Below, piece after piece: positions 8,141-28,809 of a stretch of 64,000 nt of DNA. The stretch comes from Chelativorans sp. YIM 93263 (GTDB taxonomy: Bacteria; Pseudomonadota; Alphaproteobacteria; Rhizobiales; Rhizobiaceae). The notes below the pieces were generated by a model. The model had not been told where the DNA came from. It worked only from the letters and a program-made list of their open reading frames with translations, and did no database searches. How positions within the stretch are numbered: position 1 is the stretch's first letter; every line of letters begins with the position of its first letter. Location of the stretch: positions 248,001 to 312,000 of the forward strand of contig NZ_JAKCWP010000003.1 of NCBI RefSeq assembly GCF_028767125.1. Reading direction: 5' to 3'. Made by a program: the position numbers and the translations under genes.

Positions 8141-8200
8141 GGTTGGTCTCACTCCCTTTGGTTGAAAAAGCCGGCTATCCGGCGGACTTCCGCAATCGGA

Positions 8201-12105: not shown

Positions 12106-12145
12106 ATGTGATTTTATTGACAGTTTCATGTGATTTGAACTACTT
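12106..12145 (+). promoter_or_regulatory. candidate promoter/operator for eryD-A-B-C
   Basis: TTGACA (12117-12122) and CTACTT (12140-12145) are 17 bases apart and lie about 40 bases before the eryD start. Two copies of ATGTGATTT (12106 and 12128), again 22 bases apart, flank the -35 hexamer. The TGTGA core and spacing match the repeats at 11796/11818. Confidence 0.6.
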
Positions 12146-12185
12146 TTCTAACACTGAATTTTTTTTCACCCTCTCTGAAGGTCAC

Positions 12186-13151
12186 ATGGAAAAGCCGCTC
12201 AACCTGCGCGACCCCAATGACAGTCTTCCGATCCGGGCGGCATGGCTACATTACGCCGCGGGAATGACGCAGGCCCAGGTCGCGGCCCGGCTAGGTGTCT
12301 CAACGGTAAAGGCCCACCGCCTCATCGCCTCCGCGAACCAGCAAGGCGCAGTCCGTATTACGGTCACTGGTGAGATCGTTGAATGTCTGGAACTCGAAGA
12401 GCGTATTTGCGATGTCTTCGCTCTGGACGAATGCAAGGTGGTGCCCGATCTGCATGAGGCGGGCTTGCCGGTCAAAGCGCTGGGCGTCGCAGGTTCGTCC
12501 TATATTCAGCAGGAAGTCGAGAAGGAAGAACCACGGCTGATCGGGATCGGTCACGGCAGAACGCTTGCTGCTGCGGTCTCCGCCCTGCCCGTCGTGCCTG
12601 CAACGAATACACGTTTTGTCTCACTCATGGGCGGATTGACGCGCAATTACGCGGCCAATCCCCACGATGTCATGCATCGTCTGACCGAGAAGACCGCGGC
12701 AGAGGTCTACGTCATGCCGGTGCCCTTTTTTGCGAATTCCGCCGAAGATCGCGAGATCCTGCTCGCGCAGCGGGGTGTGCGCGAAGTTTTCGATTTGGCC
12801 GCGAACGCCGATCTTTTCCTTGTCGGTATCGGCACCGCAAGGCCCGATGCTCAATTGGTTGCCTCACGCATGATCGAGCTCGAGGAAATCGCCGAGGTGC
12901 AGGACAAGGGCGGCGTCGGCGAAATTCTGGGGCACTTTTTCAACCGGGATGGCCAACCGGTCCGCACCTCGTTAAGCGCGCGCACACTGGCGCCCGATTT
13001 CGACGTGATTTCAAGACGGCGCGCAGTCGCTATTGCCGGCGGCGCGGGCAAGGAACAGGCAATACTTTCGATACTGCGAAGCGGCCTTCTTTCAGGGCTG
13101 ATCACCGAAGAAAAGACGGCGCATGCCCTGCTCCGCACGAACGCCGAATAG
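12186..13151 (+). CDS. eryD: SorC/DeoR-type sugar-binding regulator EryD
   Basis: 321 residues, SorC family. The helix-turn-helix is MTQAQVAARLGVSTVKAHRLI (about residues 27-47), followed by the large sugar-phosphate-binding domain (GIGHGRTLAAAV, MGGLTRN, KGGVGEILGHFF). In Brucella EryD represses the ery operon and erythritol relieves it. ATG 12186 follows GAAGG at 5 bases. It starts the plus-strand eryD-A-B-C group; in Brucella the order is eryABCD, so the regulator has moved to the front here. The paired TGTGA repeats upstream are its most likely targets (inference). Confidence 0.9.
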   Translation: MEKPLNLRDPNDSLPIRAAWLHYAAGMTQAQVAARLGVSTVKAHRLIASANQQGAVRITVTGEIVECLELEERICDVFALDECKVVPDLHEAGLPVKALGVAGSSYIQQEVEKEEPRLIGIGHGRTLAAAVSALPVVPATNTRFVSLMGGLTRNYAANPHDVMHRLTEKTAAEVYVMPVPFFANSAEDREILLAQRGVREVFDLAANADLFLVGIGTARPDAQLVASRMIELEEIAEVQDKGGVGEILGHFFNRDGQPVRTSLSARTLAPDFDVISRRRAVAIAGGAGKEQAILSILRSGLLSGLITEEKTAHALLRTNAE

Positions 13152-13247
13152 GACGCCGTCTCAGGGAGGATGAATTGACAAAACGTCTCAACAGCTCAGC
13201 CGCGCGGGCGACCTCATCTTTCCCAGCATGGCTGAGGAGCAGTGCCA

Positions 13248-14873
13248 ATGGCTGAACCGGACATCCTTATCGGCATCGACGCCGGAACGTCGGTTATCAA
13301 GGCGGTTGCTTTCGACCTGAGCGGGCGCCAGGTCGCCGACGCCTCGGTCCTGAATCACTACCAAACCGGGCTGGACGGGTCAGCCAGCCAATCTCTGGAA
13401 CAAACCTGGGCGGACTGTGCCTCCGCACTACGCCAACTGTGCGATAAGCTAGACAGCCTCGCGCGCCGCACCGTCGCGATCGCAGTGACGGGACAGGGTG
13501 ACGGCACCTGGCTGGTTGGCGCCGACAACAGGCCGGTCGGAGACGCCTGGCTTTGGCTCGATGCGCGCGCAGCGCCGACCGTGCGCCGCCTTGCCGAGGA
13601 TCCGGCCGACCAGGCACGGTTCGAAGCCACCGGTACGGGATTGAACACGTGTCAGCAGGGCGCGCAAATGGCACATATGGATGCGACGGTGCCTGAGCTT
13701 CTCGACCGCGCGGAAGTCGCTTTGCATTGCAAGGACTGGCTCTATCTGAACCTGACCGGTGTGCGGGCCACCGACCCTTCTGAGGCCTCCTTCACCTTCG
13801 GGAATTTTCGCACCCGCGCCTATGATGACGGAGCGATCAGAGCGCTCGGCCTGAAGGGCCGTCGTAAGCTGCTTCCGGAAATCATCGAAGGCACGCAGAC
13901 GACGCATCCGCTCACCGCAGACGCGGCCGAAGCGAACGGCTTGCGCCCAGGCACACCGGTCTGTCTCGGCTATGTGGATATGGTCATGACCGCGCTGGGC
14001 GCTGGCGTCCATACCGGTGACGAAAACGCCGCCTGCTCGACTGTGGGTTCAACCGGTGTGCACATGCGGGCCGTCCCTGCAGACGCCGTACGCCTCAATG
14101 CGCAGCGGACCGGCTACACCATCTGCCTTCCCGTACCCGGGCTCGTCACCCAGGTTCAAACGAACATGGCCGCCACGCTCAACATCGATTGGGTGCTTCG
14201 GGTGGCCGCGGATCTGATGAGCGAAACCGGGCACGAGCACTCCTACAAGGATCTCGTCGATCGCATCGAAGGCTGGATGAGCCGCTCGCATCCCGGTGCC
14301 CTGCTCTACCATCCCTATGTTTCGGAAGCCGGCGAACGAGGACCATTCGTCAACGCGGATGCTCGGGCCGGCTTTATCGGGCTGTCCGCGCAACACCGTT
14401 TCCCTGATCTCCTGCGCGGAGTCATCGAGGGCCTCGGAATGGCGGCACGCGATTGTTACGCGGCGATGGGCCCGATGCCGGCCGAGCTGCGCCTGACTGG
14501 TGGCGCGGCCCGGTCAGCCGCTCTTCGCTCCGTTCTGGCCGCATCCGTCGGCGCACCGGTTCGCGTTTCGGCCCGCGAAGAAGCCGGAGCTGCCGGTTGT
14601 GCAATGATGGCGGCGGTGGCGACGGGTATCTACCCGGATATGAACGCGTGCATCGACGAATGGGTGAAGCCGCTCCTCGAGCAGGCGGAACCGCCCGATC
14701 CGGAGCTCGTGCAAGTCTATGACGGGCTGTTTCCGGCCTACGTTTCGGCGCGTCAGGCGCTCTCTCCGGTCTGGGACAGCCTTGCCGCGCATCGCGCGTC
14801 GCTTGGCACCGAAACACACGAAGAGAAGACGGGAATGACGCTCGACGCAGCGAAAAGAGCGCAGGGGGCTTAA
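13248..14873 (+). CDS. eryA: erythritol kinase EryA (FGGY family)
   Basis: 541 residues, slightly long for FGGY kinases but normal for EryA. N-terminal IGIDAGTSVIKAVAFDL, the AVTGQGDGTWL segment that resembles the substrate-proximal region of glycerol-type kinases, and the C-terminal LTGGAARSAALRSVLAASVG signature are visible. Brucella EryA phosphorylates erythritol to L-erythritol 4-phosphate. ATG 13248 is preferred over GTG 13242 because GAGGAG lies 8 bases before it. The gene is followed by eryB after 6 bases. Confidence 0.92.
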   Translation: MAEPDILIGIDAGTSVIKAVAFDLSGRQVADASVLNHYQTGLDGSASQSLEQTWADCASALRQLCDKLDSLARRTVAIAVTGQGDGTWLVGADNRPVGDAWLWLDARAAPTVRRLAEDPADQARFEATGTGLNTCQQGAQMAHMDATVPELLDRAEVALHCKDWLYLNLTGVRATDPSEASFTFGNFRTRAYDDGAIRALGLKGRRKLLPEIIEGTQTTHPLTADAAEANGLRPGTPVCLGYVDMVMTALGAGVHTGDENAACSTVGSTGVHMRAVPADAVRLNAQRTGYTICLPVPGLVTQVQTNMAATLNIDWVLRVAADLMSETGHEHSYKDLVDRIEGWMSRSHPGALLYHPYVSEAGERGPFVNADARAGFIGLSAQHRFPDLLRGVIEGLGMAARDCYAAMGPMPAELRLTGGAARSAALRSVLAASVGAPVRVSAREEAGAAGCAMMAAVATGIYPDMNACIDEWVKPLLEQAEPPDPELVQVYDGLFPAYVSARQALSPVWDSLAAHRASLGTETHEEKTGMTLDAAKRAQGA

Positions 14874-14879
14874 GCGCAG

Positions 14880-16391
14880 ATGAAGGAACAGGACACAGTC
14901 GATCTTTTCGTCATCGGGGGCGGCGTCAACGGGGCCGGCATTGCACGCGATGCCGCCGGGCGCGGGCTTTCCGTCATTCTATGCGAAAAGGACGATCTCG
15001 GCGAAGGAACCTCTTCGCGCTCCGGAAAGCTGGTGCATGGCGGCTTGCGCTATCTTGAATACTATGAGTTCCGGCTCGTGCGCGAGGCCCTGATCGAGCG
15101 CGAGGTTCTCATGAACGCCGCGCCCCACATTATCTGGCCGCTGCGTTTCGTCCTGCCCCATTCGCCCGATGACAGACCCGCCTGGCTCGTGCGGCTCGGC
15201 CTGTTCCTCTATGACCATCTCGGCGGGCGGAAAAAGCTTCCCGGCACGCGGACGCTCGACCTGCAGCGGGCGCCGGAGGGCGCACCGATCCTCAACAAGT
15301 ACTCGCGCGCCTTCGAATATTCGGACTGCTGGGTGGACGATGCACGGCTTGTGGTGCTTAACGCGATCGACGCGGCTGCACGCGGGGCGACCGTGCTGAC
15401 CCGAACGCCCTGCATCTCGGCGCGGCGCGAGAACGGCGCCTGGAGCGTGACCACGCGCAACGAACGCACCGGCGAGACCCGCGAATTCCGCGCCAAGGTG
15501 CTCGTCAACGCCGCGGGTCCCTGGGTCAACGATGTCATCCAGCGGGTGGCCGGCTCAACTTCGTCCCGCAATGTCCGCCTGGTGAAGGGCAGTCACATCG
15601 TCGTGCCTAAATTCTGGGAAGGCGCAAACGCGTATCTCGTCCAGAACCACGACAAACGCGTCATCTTCATCAATCCTTACGAGGGAGACAAGGCGCTAAT
15701 CGGAACCACGGACGTCGCCTATGAGGGTGAGGCTGGACAGGTGAGCGCCGATGAAGCCGAGATCGAGTATCTGATGTCTGCGGTCAACCGTTACTTCAAG
15801 GAAAAGCTGCGCCGCGAGGATGTCCTTTCCGCATTCTCCGGCGTGCGGCCGCTTTTCGACGATGGCCAGGGCAACCCGTCCGCCGTCACGCGGGACTATG
15901 TCTTCGATATCGACGAAAACGATGGCGCGCCCCTCCTCAACGTTTTCGGCGGTAAAATTACGACCTTCCGCGAACTGGCCGAACGGGGCCTCGGCAAGCT
16001 GCGGACCTTCTTCCCCGAAATGGGCAAGGACTGGACGCACTCCACACCGCTTCCCGGCGGCGACATGGAAAACGCCGATTTCGAAAGCTTCCAGGCCAAG
16101 GTAAAGGCAGAGTACCCCTGGATGCCCCGCTCGCTGCTGCAACACTATACGCGCCTTTACGGAACCCGCCTCTCCCGGATCGTGGGAGAGGCAACGTCAG
16201 TCGACGGACTTGGCCGACACTTCGGGGGTGATCTTTATGAGGCCGAGGTGCGCTATCTGATGGACCAGGAGTGGGCAACAACCGCGGAGGATGTGCTCTG
16301 GCGGCGAACAAAGCATCGCCTGCACCTCACCGAAGCACAACAGGCCGAGTTTGCCACCTGGTTCAGTGCCGAAATGCGGGAGGCCGCCTGA
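14880..16391 (+). CDS. eryB: erythritol-4-phosphate dehydrogenase EryB (GlpD-like)
   Basis: 503 residues, FAD-dependent GlpD family. GGGVNGAGIARDAAGRG (about residues 13-29), GKLVHGGLRYLEYYEF, VNAAGPWV and FGGKITTFRELAE near residue 360 are visible. It oxidises L-erythritol 4-phosphate to a 3-tetrulose 4-phosphate, probably feeding electrons to quinone. It sits between eryA and eryC with gaps of 6 bases and 1 base. It is shorter than, and clearly diverged from, the other GlpD-like protein at 2917-4584. Confidence 0.92.
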   Translation: MKEQDTVDLFVIGGGVNGAGIARDAAGRGLSVILCEKDDLGEGTSSRSGKLVHGGLRYLEYYEFRLVREALIEREVLMNAAPHIIWPLRFVLPHSPDDRPAWLVRLGLFLYDHLGGRKKLPGTRTLDLQRAPEGAPILNKYSRAFEYSDCWVDDARLVVLNAIDAAARGATVLTRTPCISARRENGAWSVTTRNERTGETREFRAKVLVNAAGPWVNDVIQRVAGSTSSRNVRLVKGSHIVVPKFWEGANAYLVQNHDKRVIFINPYEGDKALIGTTDVAYEGEAGQVSADEAEIEYLMSAVNRYFKEKLRREDVLSAFSGVRPLFDDGQGNPSAVTRDYVFDIDENDGAPLLNVFGGKITTFRELAERGLGKLRTFFPEMGKDWTHSTPLPGGDMENADFESFQAKVKAEYPWMPRSLLQHYTRLYGTRLSRIVGEATSVDGLGRHFGGDLYEAEVRYLMDQEWATTAEDVLWRRTKHRLHLTEAQQAEFATWFSAEMREAA

Positions 16392-16392
16392 G

Positions 16393-17325
16393 ATGCCTCT
16401 TACACTTTCCCTCAACACCAATCCGCTGGTGAACCGCTTTGCCGAGCCGGACGATCTTATCGATACGGTCGCGCATGCCCTACGCGTGCGGGATTTGCAG
16501 CTCACGCACGAGTTCATCAACCCATCCTGGCCGCCTCGTCTCATCCGCCGGCTGATGCGTGACATGAATCGTGCGCTTGATCGAACCGGCGTGCGGATCA
16601 CCTCGGGAATGACGGGACCTTACGGCCGGCTCAACCATTTCGGACACCCGGACCGGGAGGTCCGCCGCTATTATGTTGATTGGTTCAAGACCTTCGCCGA
16701 CATTATCGCCGACCTGGGCGGCACCTCCATTGGCACCCAGTTCGCAATCTTCACCTATCGCGACTACGACGACCCCGCACGGCGCGAGGAACTGATCCGG
16801 ATCGCCATCGACTGCTGGGCCGAGGTCGCCGAACACGCAAAAGACGCCGGGCTTTGCTTCCTCTTCTGGGAGCCGATGAGCATCGGCCGGGAATTCGGCG
16901 AGACGATTCAATCCTGCATGGCTTTGCAGGATCGCCTATCGGCAGCTGACATGGCCATACCCATGTGGATGATGGCAGACATTGATCACGGCGACGTCAC
17001 GTCGCCCAATCCCGACGATTTCGACCCCTATGCCTGGGCGCGGTCAGTGCCGAAAGTCAGCCCGATCATTCACGTAAAACAATCGCTTCTGGACAAGGGC
17101 GGGCACCGGCCCTTTACTTCCGAGTTCAATGCCAAGGGGCGAATCCAGCCTGAGCCGCTGCTTGCAGCGTTTGCCGAAGGCGGTGCGGAGAACAACGAAA
17201 TTTGCCTTGAGCTATCGTTCAAGGAGCGAGAGCCGAACGACCGGGAAGTGATACCGCAGATCGCCGAAAGCGTGGCCTTCTGGGCACCTCACATCGATTC
17301 GGGTGCTTCCGATCTCAAGGTTTAG
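16393..17325 (+). CDS. eryC: tetrulose-4-phosphate racemase EryC (AP-endonuclease-2/TIM-barrel family)
   Basis: 310 residues from ATG 16393, one base after the eryB stop. The fold family is the xylose-isomerase-like/AP endonuclease 2 TIM barrel: LTHEFINPSWPPR, GTSIGTQFAIF, LFWEPMSIGREF and ADIDHGD supply the carboxylates and histidines expected for metal binding. In Brucella EryC is the first of three isomerases after EryB. With EryH and EryI in this window the whole route to D-erythrose 4-phosphate is encoded. It ends 60 bases before the convergent dhaL gene; no obvious terminator lies between. Confidence 0.9.
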   Translation: MPLTLSLNTNPLVNRFAEPDDLIDTVAHALRVRDLQLTHEFINPSWPPRLIRRLMRDMNRALDRTGVRITSGMTGPYGRLNHFGHPDREVRRYYVDWFKTFADIIADLGGTSIGTQFAIFTYRDYDDPARREELIRIAIDCWAEVAEHAKDAGLCFLFWEPMSIGREFGETIQSCMALQDRLSAADMAIPMWMMADIDHGDVTSPNPDDFDPYAWARSVPKVSPIIHVKQSLLDKGGHRPFTSEFNAKGRIQPEPLLAAFAEGGAENNEICLELSFKEREPNDREVIPQIAESVAFWAPHIDSGASDLKV

Positions 17326-17385: not shown

Positions 17386-18039
17386 TCATTGCTGGATCGA
17401 TTTCTTAAAATGAACACCGATGGTTTCGATGATAATTCTTGCCGAAGCCGCGCCCGGATCGATGTGACCGAGCGAGCGCTCGCCGAGGCGAGCGGCCCGC
17501 CCTTTTGATGCGATCATCGCCCGCGTGGCGGCCGCCCCAGCGGCCCCCGCCTCTGCTGCTTCGCGCGCGATCTGGTCGACCGAAGCGCCGCGCTCATAGG
17601 CAGCGTGGGCGGCTTCGGCGGCCGGCAGCCACGCGTCAAGCATCGTTTTGTCGCCACGCGCTCCCTTTCCGCGCTCCCTGATTCCCTCCGCGATTGCCGC
17701 AAAGATCGAACACAGGAAACGACCGTCGACACAATCGTGCTGCCGCACTGCCGTTGCGGCGCACAGAAAGGCAGTCGCGTAAAGTGGTCCAGTCGAGGCA
17801 CCGACCGCGTTGAGAAAGGCATTGGCCGCAGTAAAAAACACGTCCGATGGAGTGCAGTTCTCCATGTCCAGCTTTGAAAGTGCGGAATTCACGGCGAGAA
17901 AACCGGTGGACATCGTAATACCGTGATCGGCATCGCCGATAACCCCGTCGAGACGGGTCAGGGAACCTCTTTCGGCCTCGATCGCCTCGGAAATCGCGTA
18001 GAACATTGAGACCAGTTCGCGAGCCTGATTCCTCGACAT
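17386..18039 (-). CDS. dhaL: dihydroxyacetone kinase-like subunit DhaL (copy 1)
   Basis: 217 residues, DhaL family, the nucleotide-binding subunit of dihydroxyacetone-type kinases. The Mg-binding aspartates lie in DGVIGDADHG (about residues 30-39); GASTGPLYATAF, GDKTMLDAW and RLGERSLGHIDPGAAS follow as in the family. It lies 37 bases downstream of the SorC-DhaK fusion and is the last gene of the 11-gene operon, so its natural partner is the fused DhaK domain. No DhaM/PTS subunit is present nearby, so ATP rather than phosphoenolpyruvate is the likelier donor (inference). Confidence 0.9.
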   Translation of the reverse strand: MSRNQARELVSMFYAISEAIEAERGSLTRLDGVIGDADHGITMSTGFLAVNSALSKLDMENCTPSDVFFTAANAFLNAVGASTGPLYATAFLCAATAVRQHDCVDGRFLCSIFAAIAEGIRERGKGARGDKTMLDAWLPAAEAAHAAYERGASVDQIAREAAEAGAAGAAATRAMIASKGRAARLGERSLGHIDPGAASARIIIETIGVHFKKSIQQ

Positions 18040-18076: not shown

Positions 18077-20134
18077 CTACTTTATGGAGAGGAATGCGGT
18101 ATCGCAGGGATGGTCCAGCAACTCCGCGAGTTGGTCGTCCAGATGCAGCACGGTGATAGAAGCGCCAGCCATATCCAGAGATGTGCAATAGTGACCGGTC
18201 CAACTGGCGTGGACTGCTATGCATTTGGCCTCCAGCCGCTGGCGTACGCGCCGGTAGAGAATGTAAAGTTCCATCAGGGGAGTGGCGCCGAGCGAATTGA
18301 CCAATACGGCAACGCGGTCGCCACTTCCGGCCTGCATCTCAGAAAAGATGCGGTCCATGACTGCATCCACGACCTCGTCGGCGGGTCGCAGCCGGTCGCG
18401 GGCGACCCCCGGCTCGCCGTGAATGCCGATTCCGATCTCCATCTCGTCCGGCCCGATCTCGAAATTGTGCGTGCGCGTCTGCGGCAACGAGCATGGCTCG
18501 AGCGCAACGCCGACTGTATAGGTCCGCCGGTTGGTCTTGCTGGTAACCGCTTCACAGGCCTCAAGCGGCCACATGCGATCGCATGCTGCGCCGGCGATCT
18601 TGAAAGTGAAGAAATTGCCGGCCACGCCACGCCGGCCCTCGCGGTCCTCGACGGGTGAGGAGGCAATGTCGTCCGTGGTGATGACGGTGCGCACCTCGAT
18701 GCCTTCTGCCTTGGCGAGATCTGCGGCCATCTGGAAATTCATGATGTCGCCGGTATAATTGCCGTAGACGAAGAGCACGCCCTTACCACCCGAGGCTGCC
18801 TTAGCGCATTGTGAGATCGGATCCGGTGGAGGGGCCGAAAAGATGTTGCCGATGGCCGCCGCGTCCGCCATTCCCTTTCCGACATAACCGAGAAAGCACG
18901 GCTCGTGCCCGGAGCCGCCGCCGATGACGAGCCCCACCTTGCCCTCGCGCGGCCCGCGCTGGGCCACGAGTGCGCGACGATGGCCGTCGATCGGCCTCAG
19001 ATAGCGTTCATGGGCATGGACGATGCCATCAAGCATCTCCTCGATCACGTCCACAGGCTTGTTGACAAACTTCTTGACCGCACTGCGGACGTTGACGACG
19101 CCGGCCTCCGGACCGCGCTGGGGCGCAAGCTTGCGGTCCAACTCCGCCACGCCGTCGGCCTTGAGGATGCCGCGGCCGGTTGCCGCGTCGGTGACGAGTA
19201 CATCGATATAGCCGCCGCGCAGAGCGCCCAGGATCGCGGCCACCTTGTCGATGCCGCCGACCACTGCGATCTTGGTCTCGATGCCCTCGAACCCGTCCAG
19301 CGTGATGCCGATGGTGCGCTCGTCGAGCGGTCCGGAGACCGGCCGCCCGTGGTCGTCGATGAAACGGCCGGCAATAACGCCCACGGCGTTCTTCTCCAGG
19401 TAGAGTTGGGTGGCGACCGAATCGAAGAAGCCGCTTGTATGGATGGTCGAGTTGGGACGCAGGGAGGAAATGCCGAAGAGAAGCCGGTTCGCTCGCGCCA
19501 GCGCCGCAAGCTGCCCCGCAACCACCGGCTCCTGCAAGAGGAGGTCGCGAACTTCGGCCGAAGAGACGAGCGCCGGCGCCGTCAGGTTGACGCAGCGTGC
19601 ATTCAGCGCGGCGGAAAGGCATGCCGCGCAAGCCTCGGGCGTGTATTCGAAGGTCGCCGTGGTGCCGCCCGTCGCCTGGATGACGGAAACGTCTTGAAGG
19701 TCGCCGCGCCGGGCACGCTCGGCGACTGCCATCACAGTGCGACCCCAGGCGACAGCGATCGTGTCGGCGGAGCGCACCGTCTGGTTGAGGACGCGTGCGC
19801 CAGCGGTCCCGAGACGCTCGATCAGCGGATGAGCGCCGCCGTCGCTGGGTATGACGAGGCAGTCGTCGAGACCGAAATGGCGCTTCAGCTCCTGGGCGAT
19901 GGTGAGCGCGGAAAGCCGCTCCGGATCAATGGTGATGTTGACGATGCCGCGCTCGCGCGCCTCGGCCAGATAGGCGTTGACCGTGGCGCGCGAGATGCCC
20001 ATCGTCTCGGCGATCTCGCCCTGGGTAAGCTGATCCTCATAGTAGAGCCAGCAGGCCCACACATAGGGATCGTCGCCATAGCGCAACGGAATCGACTGTG
20101 TCGTGCCGCCCTTCCCGTTTACTGCCTTAGCCAT
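18077..20134 (-). CDS. fusion of SorC-type transcription regulator and DhaK kinase subunit
   Basis: 685 residues in one uninterrupted frame. Residues 1-60 hold a helix-turn-helix (LTQGEIAETMGISRATVNAYL), about 60-330 the SorC effector domain (AWGRTVMAV, LLFGISSL, VVGGIDKVAAILGAL), and about 352-685 a full DhaK domain. The DhaK part keeps the substrate-side His in GGGSGHEP, the Asp in GNYTGD and the covalently binding His in GIHGEPG, so it looks active. It pairs with the downstream DhaL. Public annotation uses the name bifunctional sugar-binding regulator/DhaK for such fusions, but I know of no experimental work. The SorC domain could sense the product of its own kinase domain (inference). Confidence 0.9.
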   Translation of the reverse strand: MAKAVNGKGGTTQSIPLRYGDDPYVWACWLYYEDQLTQGEIAETMGISRATVNAYLAEARERGIVNITIDPERLSALTIAQELKRHFGLDDCLVIPSDGGAHPLIERLGTAGARVLNQTVRSADTIAVAWGRTVMAVAERARRGDLQDVSVIQATGGTTATFEYTPEACAACLSAALNARCVNLTAPALVSSAEVRDLLLQEPVVAGQLAALARANRLLFGISSLRPNSTIHTSGFFDSVATQLYLEKNAVGVIAGRFIDDHGRPVSGPLDERTIGITLDGFEGIETKIAVVGGIDKVAAILGALRGGYIDVLVTDAATGRGILKADGVAELDRKLAPQRGPEAGVVNVRSAVKKFVNKPVDVIEEMLDGIVHAHERYLRPIDGHRRALVAQRGPREGKVGLVIGGGSGHEPCFLGYVGKGMADAAAIGNIFSAPPPDPISQCAKAASGGKGVLFVYGNYTGDIMNFQMAADLAKAEGIEVRTVITTDDIASSPVEDREGRRGVAGNFFTFKIAGAACDRMWPLEACEAVTSKTNRRTYTVGVALEPCSLPQTRTHNFEIGPDEMEIGIGIHGEPGVARDRLRPADEVVDAVMDRIFSEMQAGSGDRVAVLVNSLGATPLMELYILYRRVRQRLEAKCIAVHASWTGHYCTSLDMAGASITVLHLDDQLAELLDHPCDTAFLSIK

Positions 20135-20218: not shown

Positions 20219-20881
20219 TCAGGGGGCTCCTGGGCCACCTGCGCCGGAAAGGCTCTCCGCCATCACCTCGATAATGATCGCAGCCGAGGCCGCGCCCGGA
20301 TCGACATGGCCGCGTGCGCGCTCGCCGAGGCGGGAGGAACGTCCTTTGCCTGCGATCATGTCGGCCGTCGCCTCAGCCCCCTTCGCAGCGGCCGTGCTCG
20401 CCGCCTGCAAGGCGATGGCGAGACTGGCTCCGCCTTCGCGTGCCTCGGCAAGCGCGTCGGCCGACGGCCGCCAGGCATCCACCATCGTCTTTTCGCCGAC
20501 GACGGCCTTGCCGCGATCCTCAATGCCTTGTGCCATCGCCTGGAAGGCCTGCGCCATGTCGTCCTCCGTCGCGACCTCCTTGCCCTTCAATGCCGCGCCG
20601 GCGCGCATGTAGGCGGTGGCGTAAAGGGGACCGGACGAGGCACCGACAGCGTTTAGAAACGCCTTTGCGGCCGTGTTGAACACGTCGCTCGGCGCCACCG
20701 CACCGGGATCGAGATCAGTCACGGCGGCACGCACGGCGTTGAAGCCCTGCGCCATAGCAATGCCGTGATCGGCGTCGCCGATATGGCCGTCTAGCGCGCA
20801 CAGGTGGTCCTTCTCGGTCTCGATACGTGTGGCGACGGCCTCGAACATGGCGATCAAACGTGCGCTGTCGAATGTGCTCAT
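20219..20881 (-). CDS. dhaL: dihydroxyacetone kinase-like subunit DhaL (copy 2)
   Basis: 220 residues. DGHIGDADHGIAM (about residues 28-40) carries the metal-binding aspartates; GASSGPLYATAY, GEKTMVDAW and RLGERARGHVDPGAAS complete the family pattern. It starts 10 bases after the stand-alone DhaK gene and is evidently its partner. It is similar to, but clearly diverged from, copy 1, so the two pairs probably differ in substrate or enantiomer rather than being a recent duplication. Confidence 0.9.
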   Translation of the reverse strand: MSTFDSARLIAMFEAVATRIETEKDHLCALDGHIGDADHGIAMAQGFNAVRAAVTDLDPGAVAPSDVFNTAAKAFLNAVGASSGPLYATAYMRAGAALKGKEVATEDDMAQAFQAMAQGIEDRGKAVVGEKTMVDAWRPSADALAEAREGGASLAIALQAASTAAAKGAEATADMIAGKGRSSRLGERARGHVDPGAASAAIIIEVMAESLSGAGGPGAP

Positions 20882-20891
20882 TGCCGCCTCC

Positions 20892-21896
20892 TCAGCCGTT
20901 GAACATCGCGCAGGCGCAGGGGTGATCGACCATCCGGGTCAATTCGTCGTCGAGATGCATGAGCGTGATCGATGCCCCGGCCATTTCCAGCGAGGTGCAG
21001 TAACCGCCGACCCAGGTCTTGTGCGCGGAAAGCCCCGCCTCCCCCAGCCGCTGATGAACGCGGCGGTTCATTATATAGAGCTCCATCAGCGGCGTGGAGC
21101 CGAGAGAATTGACGAGCACCGCGACCCGGTCGCCCTTTTGGGGCGCCATTTCCTCGAAGATCGAATCCATGATGCGGTCGGTGATCTCGTCCGCCGTCTG
21201 CAGCGACTCGCGCATCATGCCGGGCTCGCCATGGATGCCCATGCCGATCTCCATGTCGTTCTCGCCCATCTCGAAATTCCATTTGCGCGTCTGCGGCAGC
21301 GAACAGGGCGAGAGCGCGACCCCGATCGTATAGGTGTGGTCGTTCGCCTTGCGGGCAATCCGCTCGCACTCGTCGAGCGGCAGCATCATGTCGCAGGCGG
21401 CACCCCCTGCCTTGAAGATGAAGAAATTGCCGGCGACCCCGCGGCGCTTTTCACGCTCGCTCACCGGGGCGGAGGCGATGTCGTCGGTTGAAAGCACCGT
21501 TCGGACCTCGATGTCCTCCATGGCGGCCATTTCGGCGGCCATGTCGAAGTTCATCACGTCGCCGGCATAGTTGCCGTACATGTAAAGCACGCCGGCGCCG
21601 CCATCGACCGCCTTGGTGCAGGCCAGCACCGGGTCCGGCGGAGGCGAGGCAAAGACGTTGCCAATTGCCGCAGCGTCGGCGAGCCCCTTGCCGACAAAGC
21701 CGAGAAAGGTAGGCTCGTGGCCGGAGCCGCCGCCGATCACCAGGCCGACCTTGCCCTTTCGCGGCCCCTCCCGCGCGACCAGGGCGCGGGGATTCTCGGC
21801 AAGCTGCATCACGACATCGCCGTGAGCAGCGATCACGCCATCCAGCATTTCGTCAACGGCATCATCGCCACGATTGATGATCTTCTTGGTCGCCAT
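20892..21896 (-). CDS. dhaK: dihydroxyacetone kinase-like subunit DhaK (stand-alone copy)
   Basis: 334 residues, DhaK family. GGGSGHEP (about residues 56-63), GNYAGD and GIHGEPG carry the His/Asp/His substrate-binding residues. With DhaL it should phosphorylate dihydroxyacetone or another ketose such as D- or L-erythrulose; the mycobacterial tetritol pathways use kinases of this fold for erythrulose (established knowledge). It lies 42 bases after the pfkB-type gene and 10 bases before dhaL. Its sequence aligns over its full length with the C-terminal half of the SorC-DhaK fusion. Confidence 0.9.
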   Translation of the reverse strand: MATKKIINRGDDAVDEMLDGVIAAHGDVVMQLAENPRALVAREGPRKGKVGLVIGGGSGHEPTFLGFVGKGLADAAAIGNVFASPPPDPVLACTKAVDGGAGVLYMYGNYAGDVMNFDMAAEMAAMEDIEVRTVLSTDDIASAPVSEREKRRGVAGNFFIFKAGGAACDMMLPLDECERIARKANDHTYTIGVALSPCSLPQTRKWNFEMGENDMEIGMGIHGEPGMMRESLQTADEITDRIMDSIFEEMAPQKGDRVAVLVNSLGSTPLMELYIMNRRVHQRLGEAGLSAHKTWVGGYCTSLEMAGASITLMHLDDELTRMVDHPCACAMFNG

Positions 21897-21938: not shown

Positions 21939-22898
21939 CTAGACTTCCGCCCCGGTCCTCTGCACCGGCCAGGTGTTCATGCATTCCAGCGTGTGCTCGA
22001 ACGATCGGATCCCCGCGTCGGAGCCCAGTCCGCTCGCCACGAGCCCGGCGGCGGCCTGCGCGAAGCGCACGGCATCCTCGGGGTTCATCTCGTGTTTCAG
22101 CGCGGTGATGAACCCAGCATCGAAGGCGTCGCCGCAGCCCGTCGTATCGATCACCTCGATCCGGTAGGCGGGTATGGTGAAGCGTGTCCCGTCGGCATGG
22201 GCGTAAAACGCCCCCTCGCCGCCCAGGGTGAAGACACAGCAGGTCGCCCCCTTGTCGAGGAAATGGTCGGCTGCTTCACCTGCGGTCCCGCGCCCCGACA
22301 TCACCATCGCCTCCTCGATGGAAGGCATGAAATAGTCGATGTGCGGCAGCAGCGGCTCGACGATCGCCGCCGTCCCGGCATCAGCCGCGATGAGGTCGAA
22401 GGTGACGGTACGCCCGCGCTTCTTCGCTTCCTGCAGGAGCACGCGGCTCGGCTCGCCATCGAGCCGGCGCAGGAGTCCCGTGCCGCCCAGATGTACGATC
22501 GGTGCGTCCAGGACGAAACCGTAGGCATCAGCCGGCACGTCGAAATGATCGGACGCGCCGCGCGCATGCAGCGCCGGCCGTTCTCCATTGGCGCGCACGT
22601 TCAGGATCGTCGCCGAGGTCGGCACACCTTCAAGCCGCTGCATGGCGGAGACATCGATGCCATGCCCGCGCATGGTCGACAGCATCCAGTCCGCCTTCTC
22701 GTCGTTGCCCACCGCCCCGACCGCTAGGCAGCCGAGGCCGAGCTTGGCACAATCCACCACGGTTCCGCCGGCCGTGCCGGCGACCGTCAGCCGGATCTCG
22801 TCGATGAATTCGACATTCCCCCCCTCGGGAATCGCGTTTACCGGGCGGCCGAGCACGTCGAGGATGTACAACCCGATAACCGATACATCATGCGCCAT
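21939..22898 (-). CDS. PfkB/ribokinase-family sugar kinase
   Basis: 319 residues. The C-terminal PfkB signature DTTGCGDAFDAGF (about residues 250-262) with its catalytic Asp and the N-terminal GGTVVDCAKLGLGCLAVGAVG stretch are visible. The gene overlaps the end of the ABC ATPase gene by 11 bases, so it belongs to the transporter operon. Substrate unknown; a free sugar or sugar phosphate delivered by this transporter is likely. A third kinase in an operon already carrying two DhaKL pairs suggests several related substrates or sequential steps. Confidence 0.87.
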   Translation of the reverse strand: MAHDVSVIGLYILDVLGRPVNAIPEGGNVEFIDEIRLTVAGTAGGTVVDCAKLGLGCLAVGAVGNDEKADWMLSTMRGHGIDVSAMQRLEGVPTSATILNVRANGERPALHARGASDHFDVPADAYGFVLDAPIVHLGGTGLLRRLDGEPSRVLLQEAKKRGRTVTFDLIAADAGTAAIVEPLLPHIDYFMPSIEEAMVMSGRGTAGEAADHFLDKGATCCVFTLGGEGAFYAHADGTRFTIPAYRIEVIDTTGCGDAFDAGFITALKHEMNPEDAVRFAQAAAGLVASGLGSDAGIRSFEHTLECMNTWPVQRTGAEV

Positions 22899-24000
22899 CG
22901 ACTGTGCTCCTCCCCTCAGCGCCTTCTTTCATTTCAGCCCCGACCCGCGTGCCGTTTGCGAAGACGCTCGTCCACTCGGGATCGGCCGAAACGTAAACCG
23001 CATCGCCAGGCCGCACGCCGTCGAGGCCGTCAACCTTGGCCTTGATCTCGAAGTCCTCGAGCGCAATGCGGATGATCGAGCGCCCGGCGATGCCGACATT
23101 CATGTCCTTCAGCCTGCCTGCCACCGCGCCCGGCCGCGGGCGCGCCGAGACGCGCACATGTTCGGGGCGAACGCCGACCTTGATCTCGGCCGCACCATCC
23201 AGCGGACGTTCGGGGGTGTACACGCCACCGCCCAGCGCACTGGTCACCCCGTCCCCTTCCCGTCGCGCCGGCACGAAGTTCATGCCGGGATTGCCGAGGA
23301 ACCAGCCGGCGAACTCCGTCGCGGGCAGCGCGTAAAGATGCTGCGGCGTGTCGTACTGGATGATCCGCCCGTCACGCATCAGCGCCACGTGATCGGCCAA
23401 CGTCATGGCCTCGGTCTGGTCGTGTGTGACGTAGATGATCGTCTGCTTCAGGCGGCTGGTGACCAGCTTGAAGGCGCGGATCAGGGCAAGCTTGGCCTGA
23501 ACCTCGACGTTGGTGGTCGGCTCGTCGAAGAGCACGATATCCGAGCGCCGCGCCACGGCGCGGCCGACGGCGACCTTCTGCCGGCTGCCCGCATCCAGCT
23601 CACCGATGAAGGCGCCCCCGCGGTCGCGCATGTCGAGAACGTCGAGCACCTCGTCGATCCGCCGTCGCCGTTCCGCGGCATCGATGCTGCGGTCCTGGTT
23701 GAGCGGCAGCGCGATGTTCTCCTCTACCGAGAGCGTGGGGTACATGACCGGATACTGGAAAACCATGCCGACGCTGCGCTTGCGCGGTGGCAGGCCGCCC
23801 ATATCCTTGTCGCCGAAGAGGATGCGCCCCGAGGTCGGCGTCTCAAGCCCGACGATCATGCGCATCAAAGTGGTCTTGCCGCAGCCGGAGGGCCCGAGCA
23901 GGCAGGTGACGGCGCCATCCTCGAAGGTGGTGCTCAGGCAATCGACGGCGGTGAAGTCACCGAACTTCTTGGTGACGTTGTCGATGACGACCTTAACCAT
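22888..24000 (-). CDS. CUT1-type ABC transporter ATPase with degenerate signature motif
   Basis: 370 residues, MalK/UgpC-type ATPase like GlpT of the rhizobial glycerol transporter. Walker A GPSGCGKTT (about residues 38-46), Q-loop MVFQYPVMYP, Walker B IVLFDEPTTN and switch histidine YVTHDQTEAM are all canonical, but the ABC signature reads LDAGSRQKV instead of LSGGQ. A C-terminal regulatory OB-fold domain follows (VGVRPEHVRV). Start ATG 24000 overlaps the next ATPase gene by 8 bases. Its partner ATPase has the opposite defects. Confidence 0.88.
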   Translation of the reverse strand: MVKVVIDNVTKKFGDFTAVDCLSTTFEDGAVTCLLGPSGCGKTTLMRMIVGLETPTSGRILFGDKDMGGLPPRKRSVGMVFQYPVMYPTLSVEENIALPLNQDRSIDAAERRRRIDEVLDVLDMRDRGGAFIGELDAGSRQKVAVGRAVARRSDIVLFDEPTTNVEVQAKLALIRAFKLVTSRLKQTIIYVTHDQTEAMTLADHVALMRDGRIIQYDTPQHLYALPATEFAGWFLGNPGMNFVPARREGDGVTSALGGGVYTPERPLDGAAEIKVGVRPEHVRVSARPRPGAVAGRLKDMNVGIAGRSIIRIALEDFEIKAKVDGLDGVRPGDAVYVSADPEWTSVFANGTRVGAEMKEGAEGRSTVDGA

Positions 24001-25087
24001 GGTCCACGGCCTCCCTTTGCGGCTGAGCGCGCCCGATCCGCTCGCCGGTGGCGGCGTCGAAGACCATGATGCGCTGCGGGTCGATCGCGATCCTGACCTC
24101 GGCGTCGATCTCCGGCAGCGCCGCATGGGCGGAAGGGAAGGCCGCCGTCATCGGCATGCCATCGCTTTCGAGATAGACGACGATCTCGGACCCCAGATGC
24201 TCGACGATGCGGACAATGGCCTTGGCGCCCACCTCACCCGCGCCGTCGAGCCGCACGTCCTCGGGGCGCAAGGCGAGTCGCACCGTTCCTTCGGGCACAT
24301 CCGAAGGGAGCCCAAAGCGTAGTCCGCCCGTCTCTACGACCCCGTCGCGCGCGGTGCCGTCCCAGACATTGGCCTTGGGGAAACCGATCAGCTCGACGCT
24401 GCGCGCGAAACGCGGTTCGCGATAGAGATCAAGGACGTCATCCTTCTCCACCACGCGTCCGTCATCGATCACCACCAGATCCTGCGCCATGGTGAGCGCC
24501 TCGAGCGAATCGGCCGTGGCGTAAAAGAAGGTCGCCTGCAACTCCTCGCAAAGATGCTTCAAGTCGTCCATCAGCCGTTCGCGCAGCTTGTAGTCGAGAC
24601 CGACCAGCGGATCGTCGAGTACGAAGACCGTGGCGCTGGTGAGCAGGCCACGAGCAACGGCGACGCGCTGCTTCTCGCCGCCCGAGAGCTGGTCCGGCGT
24701 CTTCTTCATGAGATGCCCGATCGACAACATGGCCGCCGAGCGGTCGACGCGTTTGGCCACCTCGGCGGAAGGCGCGCGTGCAAGGCGCAGCGGATAGGCG
24801 ATGTTCTCGAACACGGTCATGTGCGGATAGAGCGCGAAGCTCTGCGGCACGTAGCCGAAATTACGTCCTCCCGGCGGCAGATCGGTGATGTCCACCCCGT
24901 CGGCCAGGATGCGTCCGCCGTCCGCCTTCTCCAGCCCGACCAGCAGGCGGAACAGCGTCGACTTCCCGCTCTTCGGCGGACCGCAGAGCACCGTGAACCG
25001 TCCAGGCTCGATGGTGAGCGACAGATCGTCCACGGCCTTGTCCCGGCCGAAGGTCTTGGTCACGGATTGAAACTCGACCGCCGGCAT
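23993..25087 (-). CDS. CUT1-type ABC transporter ATPase with degenerate catalytic residues
   Basis: 364 residues, GlpS-like. Walker A GPPKSGKST (about residues 36-44), Q-loop YVPQSFALYP and signature LSGGEKQRVAVARG are intact, but Walker B reads FVLDDPLVG (Asp in place of the catalytic Glu) and the switch region reads FYATADSLEAL (no His). A MalK-type C-terminal domain follows (ALRPEDVRL). It should dimerise with the ATPase encoded just downstream. It starts immediately upstream of the DUF2160 gene's end, with no gap. Confidence 0.88.
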   Translation of the reverse strand: MPAVEFQSVTKTFGRDKAVDDLSLTIEPGRFTVLCGPPKSGKSTLFRLLVGLEKADGGRILADGVDITDLPPGGRNFGYVPQSFALYPHMTVFENIAYPLRLARAPSAEVAKRVDRSAAMLSIGHLMKKTPDQLSGGEKQRVAVARGLLTSATVFVLDDPLVGLDYKLRERLMDDLKHLCEELQATFFYATADSLEALTMAQDLVVIDDGRVVEKDDVLDLYREPRFARSVELIGFPKANVWDGTARDGVVETGGLRFGLPSDVPEGTVRLALRPEDVRLDGAGEVGAKAIVRIVEHLGSEIVVYLESDGMPMTAAFPSAHAALPEIDAEVRIAIDPQRIMVFDAATGERIGRAQPQREAVDHG

Positions 25088-25372: not shown

Positions 25373-26206
<834 letters not shown>

Positions 26207-26208
26207 GG

Positions 26209-27120
26209 TCAGGTCCTCCTCCTGCGGCGCGACAGGACATAGATGAAGATCGAGGTCATGGCGATCGAGATGAGCAGAAGCAGCACCGAATAGGCCGACG
26301 ACCAACCCATATTGAAGCTCTCGAAGCTTTGCTTGTTGAGTTCAACGGCGACAAGTCGCGTGGTCTGGCCAGGCCCGCCCTTGGTCATCGGAATGACGAG
26401 ATCAAGCGTCTTGAAGGAATCGATGGTGCGCAGGAGGATGCCGAGCATAAGGATGAACTTGCCGTGGTGCCAGACGACCAGCGTCAGGCGCTTGTGCCAG
26501 GGCAGCCGGTCGATCTCTGCCGCCTCCAACTCCGCTTTCGGCACGGAACCGAGCGCGGCCAGCGTCATCAGCGTCATGAAGGGGGTCCACATCCAGCAGT
26601 CGACCGCCAGCACCGCCCAGAAGGCGATCTGCGGATCGCCCAGGAAGTCGATCCGTCCGGTGCCGAAAATGCCCTGCACCATAGCGTTGAGTACGCCGAA
26701 GGTCGGATCATAGATGAAGCGGAAGAAGGTGCCCGTGGCGATCGGCGTCAGCACCATCGGCGTAAAGAGGAGCGTCAGCGCCACGCGCCGGCCCGGCATG
26801 GCCTTCGAACCCCAGAAGAGAAGACCCAACAGCACGCCAAGCGTCGTCTGGATAGCCACGCCGACGCCAACGAACACGAAGGTCCGGTGCAGGTCGGACC
26901 AGATGTTGTTCTTGTTGTAGTAAATGTCGACGAAGTTGCGGAAACCGATGAACTCCGGCGGCATGCCGCTGATCAGCGAGAACTTGTGGAAGGAGAGGCC
27001 GAGAAGCCACAGCACCGGGATCGTGTTGAAGACCAGGAAGAAAGCCAACACCGGAACCAGCAGCGCGACTGTCAGAAACCGCCTGTCATCGAAGACGCGC
27101 AGGAAAGACGCTTTGGACAT
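26209..27120 (-). CDS. CUT1-type ABC transporter permease, MalF-like
   Basis: 303 residues, six hydrophobic segments, with the EAA-like loop AAEIDRLPWHKRLTLVVWHH (about residues 202-221). It forms the membrane pore with the MalG-like partner. It lies 69 bases after the solute-binding protein gene, the usual gap where abundant binding-protein mRNA is separated from the rest. Confidence 0.88.
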   Translation of the reverse strand: MSKASFLRVFDDRRFLTVALLVPVLAFFLVFNTIPVLWLLGLSFHKFSLISGMPPEFIGFRNFVDIYYNKNNIWSDLHRTFVFVGVGVAIQTTLGVLLGLLFWGSKAMPGRRVALTLLFTPMVLTPIATGTFFRFIYDPTFGVLNAMVQGIFGTGRIDFLGDPQIAFWAVLAVDCWMWTPFMTLMTLAALGSVPKAELEAAEIDRLPWHKRLTLVVWHHGKFILMLGILLRTIDSFKTLDLVIPMTKGGPGQTTRLVAVELNKQSFESFNMGWSSAYSVLLLLISIAMTSIFIYVLSRRRRRT

Positions 27121-27189: not shown

Positions 27190-28677
27190 TTAGAGCGAGG
27201 TGCTTGCGCAGGCATCCGAAGGCCGTTCGGACGCCGTACCGTCGTCGTAAAGAATCTGCTGCTGCTGGCAGGCAATATAATCCAGCGCCTGCTTCGCGGA
27301 GGCGGTGGTTCCCGTCAGGTAGGAGGTAAAGCCCTCCTGCTGGACAGCAAGCATCTCCGAGTAGCGCGGGTGGTGCCAGAAGTCGCGCGAGCGACCGGGC
27401 TCAAGCATGTACTTGTAGGCCCTGTTCCACGGATTGATGTTGTTGAACTCGGGGTTCGACAACGTCGCCTTGTCCGTGGGGTTGCCGCCGCGCTTGGCGA
27501 ATTCGAGCGTCGTCTCCGGCAGGTACCACCAGTTGAGGAAGTCGATGGCGACGCGCATCTTGGTGTCGTCGTTGAAGGCGTTCAACACCCAGGGCTGCCC
27601 GCCCATAGTGTAGACGCGCTTGGCTTCGGCGCCCGTGCCGTGCTTGGGCGGCGGCACGACGAGAACCTGGTCGCGGTTCTCCTCGGTGATCATGGCGAGG
27701 CCGACGGCAGCCCACTGGAAGGCCGAGAAGACCTTTCCCTGGGTGAACACGTCGATGATCTCGGCAATGCCGTAATTCAGCGCGCCCGACGGCTGGTACT
27801 TGAGGAAACCCTTGTACTGCTCCATCGCCGTGGCGTTGATCTCGGAGTTGAGGATGCCCTCTACCTGTCCCGTTTCCGGATTCCAGACCTCGCCGCCCTG
27901 GCTCCACATGAAGGGGTAAAGGAAGCAGGTGCAAAAGTCATAGACCCGGCTGTATTGCGAGGCGGTCCCCCACAGCTCCCGGTCGGGGCGGGTGAAGAAG
28001 TCGGCGATCTTTTCGAACTCCTCCATGGTCAGGTCTTCGAAATCTTCAAAGGTCTGCGGCAGAGGCTGGCCGTACTTTTCCTGGAAAGCGGTGCGCTCGT
28101 CCTCGTTCTCCAGCAGGTCCTTGCGCACGAAGAGCGCGATGGTGTCACCCTCCTGCGGCAGGCCCCAGCGGTTGTTGGAGCCGTCGGGATAGGCCATGTA
28201 GGTGTCGACGACGGTCTGCGAATACCACTCGAGTTGTAGGTTCGGATTGTTGGCGATGACGTCGTCGAGCTGCAGGATCCAGCCGGGCTGCGCCAGTGCA
28301 CCGAGCCACTGGCTGTCGGAAATGATGATGTTGTATTCCTGGCTGCGCGTGGCCAGCGAGGTGGCCGCCTTCTGGAACAGGTCCGCAAACGGCGCCTCGG
28401 CGAAACCGAAGCTGACATCGTAGCCGTATTTCTCCTTGGCGTATTCGGCAAAGAGCGGCGACATTTCGACGCCAAGCGAGGACGGTAGCCAGCCGGCGAT
28501 GCCGAGAATGTTCATCTCGATCGACTGCCCGGCGAGCGGATGCTCCTCCTGGGCGCAAAGCCTGTTGATGAAGGGGGCGGAAACGGCGCCCGAAAGCCCC
28601 AGCGCGGCGCTGCCCTTCAAAAAGGTGCGGCGCGGAACGACGAGACGGCGCCCGGAACAATTGTTGTGCTCTGTCAC
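27190..28677 (-). CDS. ABC transporter solute-binding protein with Tat signal (GlpV-like)
   Basis: 495 residues from GTG 28677, which follows GGGAGGAG by 5-6 bases; longer frames start in the promoter. The N-terminus has a twin-arginine signal (PRRTFLKGSAALGLSGAV, about residues 15-32), implying export of a folded protein. The rest is a family-1 type periplasmic receptor. At nearly 500 residues it is longer than common sugar-binding proteins, in keeping with the GlpV group of glycerol/polyol receptors. First gene of the 11-gene operon. Substrate may be glycerol, a tetritol or a ketose. Confidence 0.87.
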   Translation of the reverse strand: MTEHNNCSGRRLVVPRRTFLKGSAALGLSGAVSAPFINRLCAQEEHPLAGQSIEMNILGIAGWLPSSLGVEMSPLFAEYAKEKYGYDVSFGFAEAPFADLFQKAATSLATRSQEYNIIISDSQWLGALAQPGWILQLDDVIANNPNLQLEWYSQTVVDTYMAYPDGSNNRWGLPQEGDTIALFVRKDLLENEDERTAFQEKYGQPLPQTFEDFEDLTMEEFEKIADFFTRPDRELWGTASQYSRVYDFCTCFLYPFMWSQGGEVWNPETGQVEGILNSEINATAMEQYKGFLKYQPSGALNYGIAEIIDVFTQGKVFSAFQWAAVGLAMITEENRDQVLVVPPPKHGTGAEAKRVYTMGGQPWVLNAFNDDTKMRVAIDFLNWWYLPETTLEFAKRGGNPTDKATLSNPEFNNINPWNRAYKYMLEPGRSRDFWHHPRYSEMLAVQQEGFTSYLTGTTASAKQALDYIACQQQQILYDDGTASERPSDACASTSL

Positions 28678-28774
28678 TGAAACTCCTCCCTTAGAACTAG
28701 ACGATCTGGACACAGGGGCTGCCAGTTCGCGCGGTCTCCTCCAACCAACGTTATCGCCGCTGAAGATCAGGTAT

Positions 28775-28809
28775 TTGACAAAAATCGAACGAAGATCGAC
28801 ATTTGTCAA
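28775..28809 (-). promoter_or_regulatory. candidate promoter/operator of the 11-gene polyol operon
   Basis: A perfect inverted repeat TTGACAAA-N19-TTTGTCAA, about 100 bases before the solute-binding protein start. The minus-strand TTGACA can serve as a -35 hexamer. It is a plausible binding site for the SorC domain of the fusion protein encoded in the same operon. Confidence 0.5.

Follow-up and report, generated by a model that had tools for sequence, protein, structure and literature searches.

A SorC-type regulator fused in frame to DhaK in rhizobia and their relatives: a candidate autoregulating repressor joined to the kinase of its own pathway

The stretch of DNA analysed here, referred to as the window, comprises 64,000 nucleotides of Chelativorans sp. 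YIM 93263 (assembly GCF_028767125.1, contig NZ_JAKCWP010000003.1, positions 248,001 to 312,000), and carries on its minus strand, at 18077..20134, a gene encoding a SorC-type transcriptional regulator fused to the dihydroxyacetone kinase subunit DhaK. A first-pass annotation made from the sequence alone had placed both proteins in one frame. The gene is indeed a single uninterrupted frame of 685 codons (685 aa), assigned from the open frame, Pfam and NCBIfam, and contains both PF04198 and PF02733; the plus strand of the same interval, read in the gene's frame, contains stops. It belongs to a minus-strand group that runs, in order, solute-binding protein, two permeases, two ATP-binding cassette (ABC) ATPases, a PfkB kinase, dhaK1, dhaL1, the fusion and dhaL2, and which we infer to be one operon with one transcript.

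The N-terminal half has the traits of the SorC family (SorC/DeoR subfamily), a helix-turn-helix (HTH) of 50-60 residues and a Sugar-bind domain of ~250 residues. The HTH region covers residues ~23-65 (19940..20068; this and the following domains are on the minus strand). Six short HTH or sigma-region-4 Pfam models match residues ~30-74, two of the six above cut-off, helices lie at residues 23-32, 38-45 and 49-61 of an AlphaFold model, and the full-length DeoR chain 8r7y aligns with the fusion from the HTH onward. The SorC effector domain follows at residues 77-325 (19160..19906), where Sugar-bind PF04198 scores 200.5 bits (cut-off 27) over model positions 7-257 of 257; the structures of DeoR, LsrR, SorC and CggR are related to it. 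A variable linker of ~27 residues (327-353; 19076..19156) leads into the DhaK (Dak1) domain at residues 354-685 (18080..19075), within which PF02733 matches residues 369-680 at 398.9 bits (cut-off 31.4; model positions 1-312 of 313). The Pfam search of the fusion returned no further domain beyond the HTH-type matches, PF04198 and PF02733. Its sequence relatives divide in the same way, the N-terminal half resembling full-length DeoR, LsrR and SorC and the C-terminal half E. coli DhaK. The linker has no invariant column between A326 and K354 in a 17-row alignment, measures 20-30 residues between the BLAST-matched parts, and combines low predicted confidence with a higher dN/dS than the domains.

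The AlphaFold model has a mean predicted local distance difference test score (pLDDT) of 76.4 and a predicted template modelling score (pTM) of 0.50, with pLDDT below 50 at residues 333-354 in the linker. Compared with E. coli DhaK it gives a template modelling score (TM-score) of 0.85 by target length; compared with full-length SorC and DeoR the TM-score is 0.68-0.70 by target length with a root-mean-square deviation (rmsd) of 9-12 Å, and because of this rmsd the placement of the domains relative to each other is unreliable. Structural matches of the model include 4lrx, in which E. coli DhaK is bound with DhaR, and the Lactococcus DhaQ entries 2iu4 and 2iu6.

The fusion recurs across rhizobia and related genera, and thus in many bacteria of soil and roots. 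In an order-wide survey of 397 sampled genomes, with the two best candidates scored per genome, it was present uninterrupted in 22, the Chelativorans genome included, and the other 21 proteins (L006-L027) are 55-68% identical to that of the window; in one further genome (G310) the fusion is split across two contigs, and in another (G103; locus L028/L120) sorC and dhaK lie side by side, unfused. Searching GTDB genomes with the SorC part as query gave 235 relatives, the best 80 of which were taken. These 80 loci, not all of them independent (some repeat loci of the order-wide survey, and L010 and L063 are probably identical), come from Rhizobium, Mesorhizobium, Shinella, Ensifer/Sinorhizobium, Phyllobacterium, Brucella/Ochrobactrum and other genera. 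The fusion frame is intact in 79 of them, the remaining one (L089) ending at a contig edge. Whether the fusion always occurs in this operon had been raised at first pass; the order dhaK-dhaL-[sorC-dhaK2]-dhaL2 is found in 79/80 loci. Among plasmid records, 103 of the 220 matching ones cover at least 80% of the query, Roseibium and Labrenzia among them at ~56% identity, and the fusion on pSymB of Sinorhizobium meliloti 1021 is 70% identical to the window protein. A class-level sample of 385 genomes gave the Chelativorans genome itself as the sole match at E 1e-110 or better.

The DhaK half is a full Dak1 domain, and the three substrate residues that it had been said to retain are all in place, as H410, D463 and H572. 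All three are invariant in the 17-row alignment, D463 and H572 are found in 113/113 aligned fused rows, and the motifs GHEP/GHDP, N[YF]xGD and [IVLM]HGE are present in 112/112 fused frames (some loci having been fetched twice). The domain scores 381.5 bits against TIGR02363 (dhaK1), below the cut-off of 406.25, and that model does not name it an equivalog; the stand-alone DhaK1 of the window, at 384.6 bits, likewise falls below. Against the DhaQ model TIGR02362 the fused domain reaches 213.3 bits, with a cut-off of 413.25. We considered the retained catalytic residues as proof of catalysis and dropped this argument, as a sensor DhaK would retain them too.

The gene for the ATP-binding partner subunit, dhaL2 (17386..18039, minus strand; PF02734 152 bits, TIGR02365 176.7 bits with a cut-off of 138.3), begins 37 bp past the stop of the fusion, in agreement with the earlier remark that a DhaL follows immediately, and stands directly after the fusion in 79/80 loci. 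DhaM (TIGR02364) gave no match in the Chelativorans genome at E 0.001, in a search whose control finds the proteins of E. coli, L. lactis and H. volcanii. The DhaM that marks a kinase of the phosphotransferase system type is therefore not found in this genome, and an ATP-dependent kinase is likely.

A candidate observation on the stand-alone DhaK1 of rhizobia, that it had lost the third catalytic residue, proved to be an artefact of the motif search: the alignment shows the histidine in 103/103 stand-alone rows (103 of 108, shorter fragments being omitted). Most of these rows read GHHGEP in place of GIHGEP at the substrate histidine and form a distinct subfamily, whose gene sits at ~8.1 kb in most of loci L036-L115. 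The GHHGEP-type DhaK1 may use a substrate other than that of the fused DhaK.

Purifying selection acts on both halves of the fusion to a similar degree. In 41 non-overlapping pairs, selected for a DhaK synonymous rate (dS) of 0.2-0.9, the sum of nonsynonymous rates over the sum of synonymous rates (sum dN / sum dS) is 0.128 for the SorC part and 0.118 for DhaK; the linker reaches 0.268, a figure from which pairs lacking a finite linker dS are omitted. Residues of the SorC domain were counted in 102 fused rows, one of them partial, with 19 unfused SorC rows as the comparison set. K297, T315 and D316 of the Sugar-bind domain occur in 102/102 fused rows; S224, R226 and H232 of an effector loop, at which the unfused rows vary, occur in 101, 101 and 100 of the 102. 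Given this purifying selection and these conserved residues, the effector domain has little of the look of a relic, and a single type of ligand may be common to the fused proteins. K288 of LsrR, which we take to contact the phospho-ligand, aligns with K297 when counted on the alignment, and is presented as a lead only.

A DNA-binding role had been proposed for the fusion with 28775-28809 as its site, and a conserved predicted operator at that place lends the proposal support. The interval is a real inverted repeat with 14-nt arms (28775-28788 and 28796-28809) that are 86% complementary. The candidate operator consists of the palindrome TTGACATTTGTCGA and a second half-site 21 bp on. Half-site 1, TTGACAAATGTCGA, lies at 28796..28809 (minus strand) and is the sole exact copy in the genome, situated at the operon promoter; half-site 2 lies at 28775..28788 (minus strand), 21 bp from the first. 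Four one-mismatch copies occur elsewhere in the Chelativorans genome (G000), at C1:615855, C7:23122, C23:244222 and C23:328192, and may be further targets or chance.

The palindrome TTGACAWWTGTCAA, with at most 2 mismatches, stands just before the operon's first gene in 78/80 loci; of the exceptions, L109 lacks the region and L045 has no match. Allowing at most one mismatch, TTGACAWWTGTCGA is found anywhere in 76/80 loci, compared with 0-2/80 for 12 permuted patterns and 5/80 for the reversed pattern. In an alignment of the window with the 78 loci the second half-site (TGAATATTGTCA-like), which played no part in selection, is also conserved 21 bp on. Sites of the TTGACAWWTGTCAA type accompany more than one transporter type and orientation, and in a rearranged locus (L123, genome G085) the fusion and the transporter each have a site in front. 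The predicted operator has the two half-sites at a regulated promoter that are a trait of the SorC family. Exact half-sites were also sought in whole genomes. The 23 fusion-related genomes are G310 with its split fusion, G103 with its unfused genes and 21 whose fusion is uninterrupted. Six of them carry the exact half-site, once each and within ~7 kb of the fusion, and the reversed control is present in 3/23; three of 23 comparison genomes, which have no full fusion hit, carry an exact match, in two of them (G209, G029) away from DhaK hits.

The fusion is conserved, its active-site residues are retained, a DhaL is linked to it, and a conserved operator-like sequence accompanies the gene in different operon layouts. 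The reading we favour, to which we give roughly an even chance, is that the protein is an autoregulating SorC-type repressor, that a ketose phosphate relieves the repression, and that with DhaL2 it also functions as a DhaK. The SorC half would bind, as the tetramer typical of its family, the two half-sites at 28775-28809, and in this state would repress its own operon, comprising the transporter, the PfkB kinase, DhaK1-DhaL1, the fusion and DhaL2. The DhaK half, with DhaL2 as its ATP-binding partner, would phosphorylate a small ketose, dihydroxyacetone or a C4 ketose, that either enters through the transporter or derives from an imported polyol; candidate substrates are dihydroxyacetone, erythrulose or another small ketose. 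The ketose phosphate would then occupy the SorC effector domain and the operator would be released. Joining both halves in a single chain could offer a co-localised product, a fixed stoichiometry or allosteric cross-talk.

A report on DeoR and CggR (PMC11229326) provides the nearest precedent for the regulatory half. There, both proteins are described as tetramers on two half-operators, DeoR as remaining tetrameric with its effector, and CggR as being released by a sugar phosphate, namely dihydroxyacetone phosphate (DHAP), which frees it from DNA and binds its isolated effector domain with a dissociation constant (KD) of ~3.3 μM. The two half-sites of the predicted operator would fit such a tetramer. 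A more specific proposal, close to the first-pass idea of a self-contained sensor, is that ketose phosphate made by the DhaK half passes to the SorC pocket within the same tetramer, induction thereby serving as a readout of local kinase flux. We regard this self-loading as unlikely; it is chemically sensible because CggR, as described there, is released by DHAP, the product of a Dha kinase. If true, the regulator would read substrate, ATP and DhaL2 jointly and not the cell-wide phosphate level. On this proposal DhaK1 and the fused DhaK2 may in addition form mixed dimers, tying the bulk enzyme to the repressor.

Several points weigh against an autoregulating repressor with a working kinase. The retained catalytic residues cannot separate catalysis from pure sensing. 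Flux need not pass through the fused DhaK, as the group also encodes DhaK1-DhaL1, a stand-alone pair in the same operon that can make the product as well. DHAP is a general metabolite and as such a poor specific signal. Exact copies of the operator half-site were not found in 17 of the 23 fusion-related genomes. Two fusion loci with a divergent layout, L122 and L127 (type B, as distinct from type A), have only two-mismatch sites, located between divergent genes as in the unfused L120, and in the distant loci L124, L125, L126 and L128 there is no clear site at 2 mismatches, L124 having at best a match before dhaK1; conservation of the predicted operator thus appears mainly among closer relatives. 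A sigma-70 scan, simple and strict, detected no promoter there, so that repression by occlusion is only conjectural. Finally, unfused SorC genes, ~40% identical, stand beside L054 (745, 7681) and L108 (678, 7693) near similar TTGACA-type palindromes, and the half-site may therefore be shared and need not be private to the fusion.

The main rival holds that the DhaK half is a sensor. The SorC half would receive an allosteric signal, either from ketose bound on H572 or from contact with ATP- or ADP-state DhaL2, while DhaK1-DhaL1 would do the chemistry; by analogy, this would place the logic of E. coli DhaK/DhaL-DhaR or of Lactococcus DhaQ-DhaS within one chain. The second kinase pair, present in the window and in 79/80 loci, suits this arrangement, as does the constant position of DhaL2 after the fusion (79/80), and there is precedent in the physical contact of E. 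coli DhaK with DhaR (4lrx) and in the existence of the DhaK-like co-activator DhaQ (2iu4). However, constraint on the SorC effector domain is about equal to that on the kinase, and with K297/T315/D316 and the S224/R226/H232 loop this domain still seems to bind a ligand of its own, and the fused DhaK lies far under the DhaQ cut-off (213 against 413 bits). One genome also speaks for an enzyme: in G349 (locus L027), rated complete, the fused DhaK is the sole Dak1 match at E 1e-20 and its neighbour the sole Dak2 match, so the fused domain there should be a working kinase, with the caveat that an internal start in this gene might also yield free DhaK. On balance we consider the sensor improbable, though a serious competitor.

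How the two genes came to be joined bears on the remaining rivals. In the unfused locus L120 (8401-8640), the SorC gene ends, a ~100-bp spacer follows, and dhaK begins with its own GGAGG and ATG. The type B fusions L017 and L027 (loci L127 and L122), whose divergent layout is like that of L120, have the spacer in frame and carry GGAGGA with GTG (L017) or ATG (L027) at the place of the old start; they might make both fused and free DhaK. From these genes lying side by side and these apparent former dhaK ribosome sites and starts, fusion by loss of stops is plausible. A frameshift or start codon between the domains had been named at first pass as what would undo the fusion. Beyond the unbroken frame, the linkers of 102 fused rows were searched for an ATG, GTG or TTG codon at residues 327-353 preceded by AGGA or GGAG, and the other 100 rows, the window included, have no such Shine-Dalgarno (SD)-like sequence with an in-frame start; a start-type codon without SD occurs in the linker of 73/102 rows.

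The DhaK of L017 and L027 is 70-71% identical to the stand-alone DhaK1 of the window, and a Dak1 tree places type B together with the clade of stand-alone DhaK1 (84/73 support, not starred); a single clade for all fusions is not rejected (p-AU, from the approximately unbiased test, 0.42), and a SorC tree joins type A and type B (71/87, not starred). The trees hold 31 type A and 2 type B rows for Dak1 and 26 and 2 for SorC, the near-copies L008, L009, L014, L020 and L021 and most of the 80 loci being omitted. On these trees, type A and type B fusions may have one origin or two.

A second rival, which we rate slightly lower again than the sensor, is that the halves are independent: a SorC repressor and a DhaK, both of the ordinary kind, came together as operon neighbours, with equal expression as their only coupling. 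The variable linker of 20-30 residues, predicted with low confidence, agrees with this, and so do the unfused neighbours in L120 and the apparent former dhaK start in L017 and L027. Yet many genera have retained the fusion over long divergence, at 55-70% identity to the window protein; type A shows no split frame, and DhaL2 remains next to the fusion while a second, unfused DhaK is available for plain kinase work. A third rival, by which an internal translation start or proteolysis yields separate halves and the fusion frame is not the working form, is very improbable. The SD-like sequence and in-frame start at the head of DhaK that would favour it are confined to the GTG of L017 and the ATG of L027, and the other 100 of 102 fused rows have no such site by the same test.

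The remaining genes of the group lie upstream of the fusion on the same minus strand. Nearest is dhaL1 (20219..20881; PF02734 and TIGR02365 above cut-off), preceded by the stand-alone dhaK1 (20892..21896; PF02733 400.7 bits), 63% identical to the fused DhaK, and by the PfkB-family sugar kinase (21939..22898; PF00294). The transporter genes other than the first were assigned by reading the sequence. They are ABC ATPase 2 (22888..24126; the longest frame, its start uncertain), a homologue of which adjoins PfkB in L043, L120 and L127 and lies near PfkB in L122; ABC ATPase 1 (23993..25087), with homologues in L043, L120, L122 and L127; and two ABC permeases (25373..26305, its start uncertain, and 26209..27120), each supported by its frame and homologues. 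The first gene encodes an extracellular solute-binding protein (27190..28809; PF01547, open frame). Its true start is probably further in, because the TTG start of the longest frame falls inside the operator. This protein has one solved-structure match at E 1e-5 or better, a weak one to a trehalose/maltose binder, while the binding protein of S. meliloti (L116) has 13, including a putative ribose binder and autoinducer-2 (AI-2) binders; these matches do not decide the ligand of the transporter.

In 73/80 loci a sugar-binding protein and a short-chain dehydrogenase stand in front. The dehydrogenase precedes dhaK1 (for example at 7209-8078 in L048 and 7266-8093 in L040), a hint that a polyol is first oxidised to the ketose; the window has its PfkB kinase at this position. 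Adjoining the fusion group is a catabolic cluster (12108-17325, plus strand; 7175-11522, minus strand), presumably of the erythritol type by its resemblance, with a SorC/EryD-like regulator, an FGGY kinase, a GlpD-like dehydrogenase, a triosephosphate isomerase (TIM)-barrel protein and a sugar ABC transporter. Upstream of the group, a frame at 29240-30697 (minus strand) has two HxK-type motifs and reads as phospholipase D-like.

SorC repressors, DhaK and enzyme-regulator fusions are each already known kinds. With the SorC/DeoR-subfamily repressors (B. subtilis DeoR, E. coli LsrR, Klebsiella SorC, and CggR of the sister subfamily) the fusion shares HTH and PF04198 across its N-terminal half, a paired palindromic predicted operator at the operon promoter and a sugar-catabolic gene group; it differs by a complete DhaK after the effector domain and by its own S224/R226/H232 loop. 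The covalent lysine of DeoR, which we take to be K141, lines up with T155 of the fusion when counted on the alignment. In E. coli, DhaR is a separate activator of another family; DhaK and DhaL are likewise tied to control of the dha operon, and DhaK can contact the regulator (4lrx), whereas here a SorC-type regulator is covalently joined and the genome has no DhaM match. Lactococcus also uses a DhaK fold in regulation (2iu4, 2iu6), in DhaQ, a separate co-activator of the TetR-type DhaS; the fused DhaK, in contrast, is under the cut-off of the DhaQ model. NadR, PutA and BirA are enzyme-regulator proteins, or trigger enzymes, and like the fusion place enzyme and DNA-binding parts of one pathway in one polypeptide. 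They do so with other folds and in other pathways, and the regulator part of the fusion has a separate pocket of the sugar-phosphate type.

Public annotation does name the protein, as 'bifunctional sugar-binding transcriptional regulator/dihydroxyacetone kinase subunit DhaK', just as had been stated at first pass. The accompanying remark that no mechanism work was known agrees with the open-licence PubMed Central (PMC) literature, in which no mechanistic study of the fusion was found among the matches listed; in the same literature the public product name has 0 occurrences, and the gene tags that we take to be those of the S. meliloti fusion gave no match.

If the autoregulating repressor with a working kinase is the correct reading, rhizobia and their relatives would offer a natural and widespread example of a repressor that responds to sugar and is physically linked to a kinase of its own pathway, with separate ligand pockets for the substrate and probably the product. 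The series from unfused genes (L120) through an apparent relic start (L017 and L027) to none (type A) suggests how an enzyme gene and a regulator gene could plausibly come to be joined. With its architecture, its wide retention and its conserved predicted operator, the question of a self-loading sensor becomes directly testable, and the fusion offers a clean test case for distinguishing flux sensing by local product delivery from sensing by enzyme occupancy.

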